A DNA stretch of 5,621 nt from Alphaproteobacteria bacterium (GTDB taxonomy: Bacteria > Pseudomonadota > Alphaproteobacteria > GCA-2731375). The stretch spans positions 1-5,621 of the forward strand of contig JASLMY010000286.1 in the NCBI GenBank assembly GCA_030746295.1, in the 5' to 3' direction. Made by a program: the position numbers and the translations under genes. Of the stretch, positions 3-5,621 are shown one piece after another. Position 1 is the first letter of the stretch. The number at the start of each line of letters is the position of its first letter. The notes under the pieces are model-generated. The model searched no databases, had not been told where the DNA came from, and saw only the letters and a program-made list of their open reading frames with translations.

Positions 3-710
3 AACCCGCAGGAACCGGTCTCGCTCTATTTCCGGGGCGACGACCTTTTCACGCCATACCTGAGGCGGCGCGGTCTGCCCATCGGCAACCTTACCAGCCA
101 GCTTTTCGCCAACGTCTACCTCGATCCCCTCGACCACTTCGTCAAGGAGGTGCTGCGGGCCAAGGGGTATCTGCGATACGTGGACGACTTCGCGCTCTTT
201 CACGACGATGCCGGTGTGCTGGAGGAGTGGCGGCGACGGCTGGATGCCTTCCTTACCGGACGCCGGCTCAAACTCCATCCCGTGAAGACGATGATCCGGC
301 CCACCGCCGAGCCGACCAGTTTTCTCGGCTTCGAGCTCCTACCCGATGGCCGCAGGCGACTGCCTGAGGACAACGTTTGCCGGTTCCGCGGCCGGCTTCG
401 CGGCCTCAGAGACGCCTATAGCGCCGGCACGGTGGACTTGAACGAGGTCGAACGGCGCGTCGGCGCCTGGATCGCCCATGCCGAGCATGCCGATACCTGG
501 CGCCTGCGCCACGCCATCTTCCGGGGCGGCATCTTCGATCCGGCCCGGAGCCCGAGCTTCCGTGATGGCCAAAAGAGCCCCAAGCGGAAGTCTGGCCGAC
601 CCCCGAAGGCCGCCGTGTTCTGCGCGGCGGCTCCTGGAACAACAACCCGAGGAATCTGCGCTCGGCGAACCGCAACAGGAACGAAACCGACAACCGCAAC
701 AACAACATAG
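3..710 (+). CDS. DGR-type reverse transcriptase, C-terminal part (5' truncated by window)
   Basis: This is the error-prone reverse transcriptase expected to copy the template repeat RNA into adenine-mutagenised cDNA. The frame is open from base 3 to a TAG at 708-710 (235 visible residues), and the start lies upstream of the window. Visible motifs are GLPIGNLTSQLFANVYLDPL (residues 24-43), whose IGNLTSQ (27-33) is typical of DGR RTs rather than the QGxxxSP form of group II intron RTs; the catalytic YVDD (59-62); and a later SFLGFELLPDG thumb-proximal motif. A helical thumb-like region follows, up to about residue 180. The fingers and the first catalytic Asp motif are missing because of truncation. 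The last 30 or so residues are low complexity (AAPGTTTRG, ending TTATTT) because the frame runs through the template repeat, so this tail is probably not part of the fold. GTG at 150 lies inside the RT domain and is not the start. Retron and group II maturase alternatives fit poorly. Confidence 0.93.
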   Translation, partial: NPQEPVSLYFRGDDLFTPYLRRRGLPIGNLTSQLFANVYLDPLDHFVKEVLRAKGYLRYVDDFALFHDDAGVLEEWRRRLDAFLTGRRLKLHPVKTMIRPTAEPTSFLGFELLPDGRRRLPEDNVCRFRGRLRGLRDAYSAGTVDLNEVERRVGAWIAHAEHADTWRLRHAIFRGGIFDPARSPSFRDGQKSPKRKSGRPPKAAVFCAAAPGTTTRGICARRTATGTKPTTATTT

Positions 711-733
711 GTTTTCGTGTTGCCAGCACGCCC
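611..733 (+). repeat. DGR template repeat (TR)
   Basis: This is the non-coding master copy that the RT is expected to copy with errors at adenines. Read with codons starting at 614, it encodes RVLRGGSWNNNPRNLRSANR followed by NRNETDNRNNNIGFRVAST. This matches the last part of an FGE-sulfatase/C-type-lectin domain, the same domain type as the gene running off the window end. The core at 638-709 has 30 adenines in 72 bases, including ten AAC codons and one AAT. It is bounded by adenine-free stretches at 614-637 (RVLRGGSW) and 710-724 (GFRVA). No substitution at any adenine can create a stop codon in this frame. There is no start codon of its own, and a TGA at 563-565 closes the frame upstream. 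The exact ends are uncertain because the matching variable repeat is outside the window. Confidence 0.9.
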
Positions 734-831
734 TCCCGCCGGAGCCGCCGTGTTCAAGGACGCGACGGGCGCGCCAAGGGGGTGTCCAGGGTCGGCCATT
801 GTGAGAACGAGCCATCCACGGCTGGTTGGCT

Positions 832-875
832 CCCGCGTCCCGCCCGCCTTGACCCGAACGGGTGGCGGGCGCGGG
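832..875 (+). other. Strong GC-rich hairpin in the TR-downstream spacer
   Basis: CCCGCG (832-837), one unpaired T, then CCCGCC (839-844) pairs fully with GGCGGG (864-869) and CGCGGG (870-875), giving a 12-bp stem with one bulge. The loop holds a second small hairpin, ACCC-GAAC-GGGT (852-863). It lies about 100 bases after the TR and about 85 before the next gene. It could be a transcription terminator without a U-tract, the 3' structure of the TR RNA, or a DNA cruciform of the kind known to aid DGR homing next to variable repeats. The rest of the spacer (734-960) shows no convincing gene. Confidence 0.7.
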
Positions 876-946
876 CGTGGCTGCATTCGCCTGAGCGCCA
901 AATCTATCTCTGCATCCGCCATACCCCCTGCGAGTGAACTCGAAGC

Positions 947-3585: not shown

Positions 3586-3610
3586 GCGGGATCGCAGGAG
3601 GGGTCGGACG

Positions 3611-3691
3611 ATGACGACACGCGTGACGACCCTGGCCGAAGTCAGGGCAGCGACCGGTGTCTCGACGGCGGCGAGCCCAGGTCAGCGTTAG
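3611..3691 (+). CDS. Possible 26-residue small ORF
   Basis: ATG 3611 to TAG 3689-3691 encodes a 26-residue Thr/Ala/Val-rich peptide starting MTTRVTTLAEVRAATG. A very good Shine-Dalgarno (AGGAGGGG, 3596-3603) lies 7 bases ahead, and it starts 25 bases after the transglycosylase stop, in the same spacing style as the operon. There is no signal peptide or membrane segment. It may be a small protein, a leader peptide for the gene downstream, or the remnant of a longer gene. The sequence alone does not settle it. Confidence 0.3.
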   Translation: MTTRVTTLAEVRAATGVSTAASPGQR

Positions 3692-3781
3692 CGATGTGTC
3701 GATGTCGCGCGCCGCAATCGGATGGATTCGCCATACCCGTGTGCTAATCTTCGCGACGTGGTTCCGACGGGGAGACTGGTA
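3692..3781 (+). promoter_or_regulatory. Leader region with ribosome binding site before the caspase-FGE gene
   Basis: This 90-base gap precedes the large downstream gene. GGGGAG at 3769-3774 lies 7 bases ahead of ATG 3782 and is a good Shine-Dalgarno. A TGCTAATCT at 3743-3750 is a weak extended -10-like match without a convincing -35 partner, so a separate promoter is only a possibility. Nothing else is recognised. Confidence 0.45.
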
Positions 3782-5621
3782 ATGTCGCTTCGGAGACGAG
3801 ATGCCGGGCTTGGTATTCGGGCGCTCTCGATAGCGGCCATCTGTCTCCTGCAGTTGGCGCTTCCCGCGACCGCCGAGGCAGCGCCTCAGAACCGCCACGG
3901 CATCGCCGTCATCATCGGCAACAAGGACTACGGGCTGAAGATCCCGGCGGTGGACTTCGCCCATAACGACGCCGATGCAATGCGCGGCTATGTCCTGGAT
4001 GTCATGGGCTTTCGCGAGGGCAACGTCATCGACCTCCGCGACGCCACGCTGGCGGAAGTGAAAGCTACCTTCGGTGATGAAAGGAACCACAAGGGGCGGC
4101 TCTTCAACTGGGTCCGGGCCGAGAAATCCGATGTCGTGGTGTTCTATTCCGGCCACGGCGTGCCCGGCCTGAAGGACAAGCGCGGCTACCTCCTACCCGT
4201 CGACGGTGATGCCAACCTGGCGGAGTTCACTGGCTATCCGCTGGAGACGCTCTACACCAACCTCACCAAGATCCCGGCCAAATCGGTCACGGTCTTCATC
4301 GACGCCTGTTTCTCGGGCGATACGCCTAAGGGCATGTTGGTGCGCGCGCTTTCTGGCATCGCGGTGGTGGCGAAGCCGGCCGCGATCATGGGCCTGACGG
4401 TGCTGACGGCGGCACGGGGCGACCAAGTCGCGAGTTGGGACGAGCAAGCGAAGCATGGCCTATTCACCGAGCACCTGATCAAGGCGCTTTACGGCGAGGC
4501 CGACGGTGGCGACTGGGGTAACGGTGACGGCGCCGTCACGCTGGCCGAGGTCGGCGCATATCTCAAGGACGAGATGGCCTATCAGGCGCGCCGCCGCCAT
4601 AACCGCGAGCAGACGCCGACGATCCAGGGACGGAAGAACCGGGTGTTGGCCCGCTTCGGGAAGGGTGCCCGGCCAGAACGGCGCCGTGCGGGCACGCAAG
4701 TTGCCGCCGTACCGAAGCCAGCAAAGCCCGAGGTGAAGCTAGAACCGGTGGAGGGAGCCTACATCACGATCAAGAACGCCAACGTCCGCGCGGCGCCGGA
4801 TGTCGGCTCGGCGAAGGCTATGAAATTGCCGGCGGGAACGGAGGTCTATGTCCCGGGCCGGACATCCGACGGCAAATGGCTGAAAGTCGAACGTGACGGC
4901 AAGGGTCTCGGTTACATTTATGCGCCGCTGCTGCAGGAGAAGGAGGCCTGGGAGACGGCGAAGCGGGAGGTCGAAAAGGCGGCACGTCGGCAAGCGGAGG
5001 CAGAGGCTAAGCGACAACGCCTGGCGGCCGCGACACCGCCGAGGCCGTCGGGGGGTACCACGGCAAGGCCGGCTGTCGGAACCTACCGGACGGGACGGAG
5101 GCCGGGTGAGGTCTTCAAGGACTGTCACGATTGTCCCGAGATGGTCGTGATACCAGCCGGCTCGTTCCAGATGGGCTCGCCGCCATCCGAAGAGGGTCGC
5201 TCCAAGGACGAAGGCCCGCAACATCATGTGACAATCGCGAAGCCGTTCGCGGTGGGCAAGTTCGAGGTGACGTTCGCTGAGTGGGATGCCTGCGTCTTGG
5301 ACGCTGGCTGTGGCGGCTACCGCCCGAAGGATCGAGGTTGGGGCCGTGGTCGCCGTCCGGCCATCTACGTAAGTTGGAAGGACGCGAGGGCGTACGTCGA
5401 CTGGCTGAGCCGGGAGACGGGCAAGACATATCGGCTGCTGAGCGAGGCGGAATGGGAATACATGGCGCGTGCGGGCACGACGACGCCGTTTCATTTCGGC
5501 TCCACGATCTCGACGGCGCAGGCGAATTACGATGGCAACTACGTATACGGATCAGGCAGGAAGGGAGAATACCGGCGGAAGACGATACCGGTCGGAAGTT
5601 TCTCAGCGAACCGGTTTGGCT
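3782..5621 (+). CDS. Exported caspase-like / SH3 / FGE-sulfatase domain protein, probable DGR target (3' truncated)
   Basis: The first 613 residues are visible, and the frame is open to the window end. Residues 1-33 are a signal peptide (RRR, hydrophobic core, cleavage near AEA). A caspase-like C14 domain spans about 38-275, with HGIAVIIGNKDY (39-50), catalytic His125 in VVFYSGHG and catalytic Cys176 in FIDACFSG. An acidic EF-hand-like GNGDGAVTLAEV segment follows near 246-257. A bacterial SH3-like domain lies at about 327-383 (NVRAAPDVGS, GYIYAPLL), then a charged helical linker (386-415) and a Pro/Arg/Gly-rich stretch. From 443 an FGE-sulfatase (SUMF1-like) domain begins: CHDCPEMVVIPAGSFQMGS, FEVTFAEWDACV, YRLLSEAEWEYMARAGTTTP. 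The window ends before the usual GNVWEW and GGSW segments, which the template repeat at 611-733 encodes in part. This domain is best seen as a C-type-lectin-fold binding module rather than an active formylglycine-forming enzyme. Peptidase specificity is unknown, and caspase-like bacterial enzymes often cut after Arg or Lys. Confidence 0.95.
   Translation, partial: MSLRRRDAGLGIRALSIAAICLLQLALPATAEAAPQNRHGIAVIIGNKDYGLKIPAVDFAHNDADAMRGYVLDVMGFREGNVIDLRDATLAEVKATFGDERNHKGRLFNWVRAEKSDVVVFYSGHGVPGLKDKRGYLLPVDGDANLAEFTGYPLETLYTNLTKIPAKSVTVFIDACFSGDTPKGMLVRALSGIAVVAKPAAIMGLTVLTAARGDQVASWDEQAKHGLFTEHLIKALYGEADGGDWGNGDGAVTLAEVGAYLKDEMAYQARRRHNREQTPTIQGRKNRVLARFGKGARPERRRAGTQVAAVPKPAKPEVKLEPVEGAYITIKNANVRAAPDVGSAKAMKLPAGTEVYVPGRTSDGKWLKVERDGKGLGYIYAPLLQEKEAWETAKREVEKAARRQAEAEAKRQRLAAATPPRPSGGTTARPAVGTYRTGRRPGEVFKDCHDCPEMVVIPAGSFQMGSPPSEEGRSKDEGPQHHVTIAKPFAVGKFEVTFAEWDACVLDAGCGGYRPKDRGWGRGRRPAIYVSWKDARAYVDWLSRETGKTYRLLSEAEWEYMARAGTTTPFHFGSTISTAQANYDGNYVYGSGRKGEYRRKTIPVGSFSANRFG

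Follow-up and report, generated by a model that had tools for sequence, protein, structure and literature searches.

In the diversity-generating retroelement (DGR) of phage BPP-1, the spacer behind the template repeat (TR) recruits the reverse transcriptase (RT) together with Avd and primes cDNA synthesis (PMC12875486); in the papers considered, DGR cDNA priming was worked out in a phage system. A stem-loop following the variable repeat (VR) has been described as well (PMC3240598). Clade 5 DGRs are reported to have FGE or C-type lectin (CLec) targets with STAND, vWA, CHAT-caspase and TIR partners (PMC10907252), and variable proteins of cyanobacteria contain orthocaspase-like peptidase domains and include remote targets (PMC7517822). 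Furthermore, FGS domains and DGRs were linked in ternary systems (PMC7159879). Because the accessible parts of two of these papers (PMC10907252, PMC7517822) describe caspase-type partners, a caspase protein ending in an FGE or CLec domain is a known kind of DGR target. Here we analyzed the 5,621-base contig JASLMY010000286.1 of an alphaproteobacterial assembly (GCA_030746295.1), referred to as the window in the following. It opens inside an RT gene and breaks off within the FGE domain encoded by a caspase-SH3-FGE gene, and all genes described lie on its + strand. We read the window as the right-hand portion of a DGR that is chromosomal and belongs to a bacterial lineage rewriting FGE domains, with the caspase-SH3-FGE protein as one probable target, and assign a probability of about 0.8 to this reading. 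What is new here is a covarying RNA element after the TR.

Both motifs named in the initial annotation, IGNLTSQ and YVDD, are present in the RT (Table 1), and they are invariant or nearly so across 28 aligned rows (the window and 27 relatives). The pattern [ILV]GxxxSQ is a signature of DGR RTs. About 173 N-terminal residues are missing relative to the RT P0002, which is 84% identical to that of the window, the highest value among the relatives. A PDB profile search with the 28-row alignment gave 8ub7 as the best match (E 2.3e-57), labelled in the entry itself as 'Reverse transcriptase' and taken by us to be the RT of the BPP-1 DGR; the next match was a group II RT (E 1.7e-25). That the RT belongs to another class, of the group II intron or defence type, and that the A-rich FGE-like stretch is a chance or pseudogene copy, is hardly credible. 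NCBIfam does rank the group II RT model TIGR04416 first and PADLOC lists DRT families, but the score of 49.7 bits, lowered by the truncation of the RT, is far under the model cut-off of 300, and a group II intron RT was rejected; the PDB profile likewise favours 8ub7 over group II RTs. Moreover, the relatives show A-specific TR-VR pairs, which refute this explanation at the family level, and the RNA element described below, and one of them (L001) encodes Avd (Pfam bAvd, E 2.6e-15).

The frame of the RT continues into the TR, which is thereby read in one frame by the RT and in another as the end of an FGE domain. Run-on through the TR occurs in 24 of the 28 rows, a row set that is biased because the query included the RT tail. 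In 22 of them, the window included, the frame is the same; P0090 runs on in the FGE frame, P0106 apparently in the third, and four rows stop earlier. No near relative of the window was found on plasmids. Phage records matching the RT numbered 90, all with less than 60% identity and none over 80% of the query.

The TR core (623-718) encodes RGGSWNNNPRNLRSANRNRNETDNRNNNIGFR in a frame other than that of the RT and occupies the same place beside the RT as in the relatives. The annotated A-rich template at 611-733 agrees with the limits in Table 1, which follow the extent of TR-VR identity in the related locus L017. A repeat search of the window revealed no copy of the TR within it. TR-VR pairs were analyzed in 80 genome loci, the best 80 of at least 560 confirmed, and in L081, the best of 80 listed loci from a viral collection. 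In a first scan of 51 loci all 41 matches were found at base A and none at C, G or T; 16 loci had no match, and the match in L006 was a self-overlap artefact. A looser scan of all 81 loci gave 78 matches at A and left 22 loci without a match. It also gave seven matches at bases other than A, and two of these resemble true pairs in mirror image. Pairs were retained if they were at base A, on the + strand, with at least 9 A mismatches over at least 80 bases and more than 300 bases apart. This resulted in 65 pairs in 54 of the 81 loci, some of which are cut by contig ends. The VR lies only upstream of the RT in 43 loci, only downstream in two (L017, L042) and on both sides in nine.

Peptide anchoring kept 59 of these pairs (50 loci), and the six without an anchor were dropped. 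Mismatches in the anchored pairs affect 908 of 1697 A, 31 of 1743 C, 23 of 1401 G and 25 of 847 T, that is 79 of 3991 positions other than A; the size of this bias is partly built in, since pair detection favoured A, which counts against our reading, and the scarcity of C, G and T matches in the scans serves as the control. A stem-loop lies within 130 bases after 15 of the 59 VRs and after six of the 50 TRs. With these pairs in the relatives and a structured RNA after the TR, the annotated DGR with RT and TR is well supported.

A single TR can serve more than one gene. In G003, the Magnetospira genome with locus L010, the TR query matches three places besides the TR, two of them on other contigs, and the copy on contig C146 differs from the TR at 16 of 32 A and at two of 70 other bases. 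Four further places, one of them weak, are matched in the genome of L017, and one of the four is on the same contig at a distance of about 18 kb. Since TR copies are remote in both genomes, the distance from the TR is no bar to the caspase-FGE gene of the window.

A separate observation concerns the codon after GFR-x-A, which is Ser in many TRs and Arg in their VRs (L001, L017 and other proteobacterial-type loci). The TR of the window has Ser at this codon. Perhaps the switch is the difference between TR and VR known as IMH*/IMH (initiation of mutagenic homing).

The bases 3' of the TR are conserved among the relatives. For this region a covariance model (R1) was built from 23 loci with the window left out. 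RNAalifold predicted 18 pairs for the 23 loci, and in 14 of these both partners change. Paired cells amount to 93.4%, compared with 71.9% after shuffling and 38-46% with the partners slid, and the covariation score was reached by none of 500 shuffles. The consensus consists of an 11-pair stem enclosed by stems of 2 and 5 pairs, after which comes GUCCAGGG...CAUGAUGAG. R1 recognises the element next to the TR of the window, and the next best site has an E of only 0.12. A hairpin-like stretch follows the element at a similar place in many relatives, as judged by eye.

The element was identified in 14 of the 17 loci that had no believable pair in the first scan (the 16 empty loci and L006); L022, L032 and L039 are without it. 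The 14 include L081, a contig from the viral collection whose RT is close, which shows that the element also occurs outside contigs labelled as cellular. Among five more distant loci only L042 has it, and the other four (L040, L057, L071, L080) lack it. Of 35 further loci, most of them cyanobacterial, R1 matched 22 at E ≤0.01; 18 of these matches start within 40 bases of a TR end from the looser scan, and that in L063 is on the other strand. R1 gave a single match (E 0.75) in 40 of the 79 other, more distant viral-collection loci, and in BPP-1 (NC_005357) its best site (E 0.21) lies away from the TR. Rfam 15 contains no match to the element. A literature search on DGR covariance models and conserved RNA structure found only papers on defence RTs, most subscription papers being outside its range.

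The 297 genomes of the order of G003 were also searched with R1. Nine match at E ≤0.01, five strongly (one of them, G003, is part of the model as L010) and four weakly. Four of the five strong matches adjoin an RT; near the four weak ones no RT match was found. At a threshold of E 1e-30, 17 of the same genomes have an RT match, and the weaker of these RT matches probably represent other RT classes. The fifth strong match (L278, 1200-1680) combines the RNA element with a VR-like end, a stem-loop and what looks like the beginning of an Avd frame. It has no RT match and looks like a remnant DGR left by deletion. The DGR of the window might be a decayed, no longer working remnant of this kind, and degenerate DGR loci are indeed reported in the accessible part of PMC10907252. 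We regard this as improbable, as in the visible part the RT frame with its motifs, the TR and the RNA element are intact.

Taken together, it is likely that the FGE-type bacterial DGR lineage has its own conserved, covarying docking and priming RNA after the TR, which flags DGRs, whether intact or decayed, also in places without a visible VR and which is unrecognised in BPP-1 and outside Rfam 15. By analogy, the element would recruit and prime like the BPP-1 spacer.

The downstream gene starting at 3782, with its FGE domain cut at the window end, is present as annotated, and the match covers positions 2-177 of the 255 of the Pfam profile. Its caspase domain contains both an SGHG and a DACFSG motif, presumably with the dyad His and the dyad Cys, respectively. 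This caspase-FGE gene is probably a DGR target with its predicted VR beyond the contig end. Caspase-FGE targets with an A-specific VR are found in two relatives. In L017, from a metagenome-assembled genome (MAG) of a gammaproteobacterium, RT and TR are followed by a gene for a 1049-aa caspase-PEGA-PG_binding-FGE protein, and its anchored VR of 102 bases differs from the TR at 18 of 31 A and at none of 71 other bases. In L001, from a Candidatus Binatia MAG, a gene for a 792-aa caspase-PG_binding-FGE protein precedes Avd, RT and TR, and its VR differs at 14 of 30 A and at none of 72 other bases.

The 172 FGE residues of the window were compared with 66 VR-bearing open reading frames (ORFs), 59 of which aligned; the other seven are for the most part short or truncated. 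As controls, 19 FGE ORFs obtained from 21 examined loci were included. The five highest scores all belong to VR targets: L017 (70% identity, 253 bits), L007 (64%, 221 bits), L013 (61%, 215 bits), L001 (59%, 194 bits) and L016 (59%, 192 bits). The highest identity of a control is 57%, and the lower ranks mix VR targets and controls. Variation at the protein ends was analyzed in the 88 of 120 listed caspase-FGE proteins, the window's included, that fit a 32-residue frame. At codons with A in the first or second position of the window TR their entropy is 3.22 bits, compared with 0.38 bits elsewhere; 22 validated VRs show 2.67 and 0.29 bits. In equal samples the entropy at codons other than A codons is 0.25 for the caspase-FGE tails and 0.76 for stand-alone FGE controls (eight sequences, two of them nearly alike), and it is here that the contrast lies. 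K, E, Q, M and W make up 15.5% of all residues of the caspase-FGE homologs and 48 of 968 at the AAC/AAT columns (controls, 8 of 88). FGE similarity and codon variation give sound grounds for expecting a VR but do not prove that there is one.

A motif search for an FGE tail on the caspase neighbours of other RTs (L049, L058, L060, L073, L074) found none; it was a weak search, with frames from three of the five loci and a caspase-sized frame only in L049 and L060. In the literature, nothing was found for DGR together with peptidase C14, only PMC7159879 was found for DGR, caspase and Alphaproteobacteria, and the word 'caspase' does not occur in the main text of PMC8144416 as far as this was accessible.

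Between the TR and the caspase-FGE gene lie a three-gene operon and a gene for a lytic transglycosylase (SLT). The operon proteins (934-2889) match no Pfam family above the cut-off and are probably exported. This block recurs in Rhodospirillales-like genomes, which makes an alphaproteobacterium of this kind the probable host: the 294-aa protein was found in 29 of the 297 genomes of the order of G003, its cluster (P0241) was also seen on a second contig, the longest having 8951 bases, and all three genes are present in 28 of 31 loci read (not in L162, L189 and L191). A viral-collection scan with the 294-aa protein gave nothing. In 20 longer slices around the operon (L192-L211), no RT or FGE above 33 bits was among the matches listed. 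SLT is present in 18 of them, 0.2 to about 8 kb from the block, a caspase above 200 bits in nine and a weaker caspase match in three more. R1 gave no hit in five slices without an RT match (L192-L196). The role of the genes at 934-3585 as DGR accessories was rejected, since the first three form a conserved operon found without a DGR.

In addition, we noted near-identical C-termini of the 294-aa protein (AVGFFLRN, 2430-2456) and the SLT (AVRFFLSN, 3559-3585). A loose form of this tail, with F followed by F, L, I or V within the last five residues, occurs in 110 of 120 members of the 294-aa family and in none of 18 listed SLT frames. The shared tail is possibly a sorting or recognition tag.

Table 1. 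Features of the 5,621-base window with their positions, strand and basis of assignment.
Feature	Position	Strand	Basis or remark
RT, DGR type, 5'-truncated	3..710	+	Pfam RVT_1 E 9.9e-9; stop 708-710; frame continues through TR
RT motif IGNLTSQ	81..101	+	Motif position in alignment
RT catalytic motif YVDD	177..188	+	Motif position in alignment
TR, A-rich	about 605..731	+	Outer limits inferred from L017 TR-VR identity; core 623-718 is FGE end
Covarying structured RNA, probable DGR spacer RNA	716..806	+	Model hit 82.4 bits, E 7.4e-20; adjoins TR
GC-rich hairpin, possible end of TR transcript (inferred)	832..880	+	Fold; after RNA element
Lipoprotein-like gene, first of three-gene operon	961..1545 (ORF from 934)	+	Lipobox by eye
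294-aa protein, second of operon	1572..2456	+	Signal-peptide-like start by eye
131-aa protein, third of operon	2494..2889	+	Signal-peptide-like start by eye
Lytic transglycosylase (SLT)	2941..3585	+	Pfam E 1.8e-22
Caspase-SH3-FGE gene, 3'-truncated by contig end, probable DGR target	3782..5621	+	Pfam; signal-peptide-like start by eye
Caspase (Peptidase_C14) domain	3899..4630	+	Pfam E 1.1e-16
SGHG motif	within 4142-4159	+	In caspase domain
DACFSG motif	4301-4318	+	In caspase domain
Bacterial SH3_3 domain	4775..4933	+	Pfam
FGE-sulfatase (C-type-lectin-fold) domain	5132..5620	+	Pfam; ends before expected VR

The caspases near the block bear on the question whether the DGR works on its usual upstream target only, the caspase-FGE gene being an unrelated neighbour with a fixed FGE domain. 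Nine of the ten caspase proteins read end without FGE. Six of these adjoin the block (L214, L216, L219, L220, L221, L222); by eye they have an SH3-like part and end in another C-terminal part instead of FGE. Only the caspase of L218 ends with FGE, in a genome without a detected RT. The unrelated neighbour would fit the upstream-only VR of most VR-bearing relatives, the strong caspases near SLT and operon in nine of the 20 slices without an RT match, and a caspase-FGE gene in a genome in which no such RT was found (G278). We consider it unlikely, given that the six block neighbours end without FGE and the slices show no FGE above 33 bits, that the FGE domain of the window scores best against VR targets, and that the 88 caspase-FGE homologs vary mainly at TR A codons. 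The target reading is preferred, and the window may represent a DGR that came to lie beside a resident block, where a caspase-SH3 gene of the resident type bears an FGE tail.

Several observations, in addition to the built-in part of the A bias, weigh against our main reading. Neither a VR nor Avd of the window itself is seen. About 5 kb and four unrelated genes would separate the putative VR from the TR, and the farthest downstream pair kept is at 3.2 kb (L017), although an upstream pair in L008 is 8 kb apart. The VR is upstream only in 43 of the 54 VR-bearing relatives, and the 'downstream only' position in L017 may itself be a truncation, because this contig starts about 565 bases before the RT frame. 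The genome G278 has a caspase-FGE gene without such an RT. In the FGE comparison, ranks four and five (194 and 192 bits) are barely above the best control (191 bits), and the fixed state of the controls is assumed. In equal samples, the A-codon entropy of 2.24 for caspase-FGE tails is hardly above the 2.11 of the stand-alone FGE controls. Finally, 716-880 folded as a single sequence is of ordinary stability (z -1.46), and its structure departs from the consensus.

The initial annotation had further joined RT, TR and downstream gene into one cassette of more than 5 kb. This is not supported, both because the stretch 934-2889 is a conserved operon known without a DGR and because a VR lies upstream of the RT in 52 of the 54 VR-bearing relatives. 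With the VR upstream only in 43 and on both sides in nine of these, the core of the cassette probably lies mostly left of the window, and the caspase-FGE gene is probably a second or remote target.

From these data the following mechanism can be proposed. The mRNA of the RT would run on through the TR and the structured spacer RNA. The spacer RNA would recruit the RT and Avd, the latter presumably encoded upstream and off the window, and prime cDNA synthesis into the TR. Template adenines would be copied as random bases, and in one or several target genes the cDNA would then take the place of the matching VR, at the 3' end of the gene. The first target is most likely located upstream of the RT, outside the window. 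One probable further target is the caspase-SH3-FGE protein, which is probably exported and would become a protease coupled to a hypervariable ligand-binding tip.

The locus is one more bacterial DGR, an ordinary system with a probable caspase-FGE target. Such a design agrees with the idea, already in print, that hypervariable sensors are wired to proteases of the cell-death type, here seemingly in an alphaproteobacterium. The more general gain, and the part most worth following, is the RNA element. A covarying RNA beside the TR makes priming testable in a bacterial lineage that diversifies putative immune sensors. It also offers a handle for TRs with remote VRs. If the element is the docking and priming RNA of this lineage, RNA-guided discovery of DGRs would be possible.

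Compared with the described systems, the window and its relatives share with the BPP-1 DGR an RT, a TR, a structured spacer after the TR and a VR at the 3' end of the target (PMC12875486, PMC3240598, accessible parts). The gene order differs, being avd-TR-spacer-RT in BPP-1 and RT-TR-RNA in the window, and R1 does not recognise BPP-1. Cyanobacterial orthocaspase-CLec proteins (PMC7517822) resemble the window protein in their N-terminal caspase-type peptidase, their C-terminal CLec domain and the use of remote targets; they belong to a different phylum, and the window protein has in addition an SH3 domain and a signal-peptide-like start. To the clade 5 DGRs the window is likened by RT relatives and targets and not by a tree. 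Accumulibacter, filamentous cyanobacteria and large sulfur bacteria were among the sources of RT relatives in our scan, and the accessible part of PMC10907252 describes FGE-type targets, several per genome, with effectors including caspase-like ones. The probable target in the window differs in being a caspase-SH3-FGE protein and not a STAND or vWA protein. Unlike clade 5, the window encodes no MoxR or VMAP family in any of the six frames scanned, and its host is apparently a Rhodospirillales-like alphaproteobacterium.

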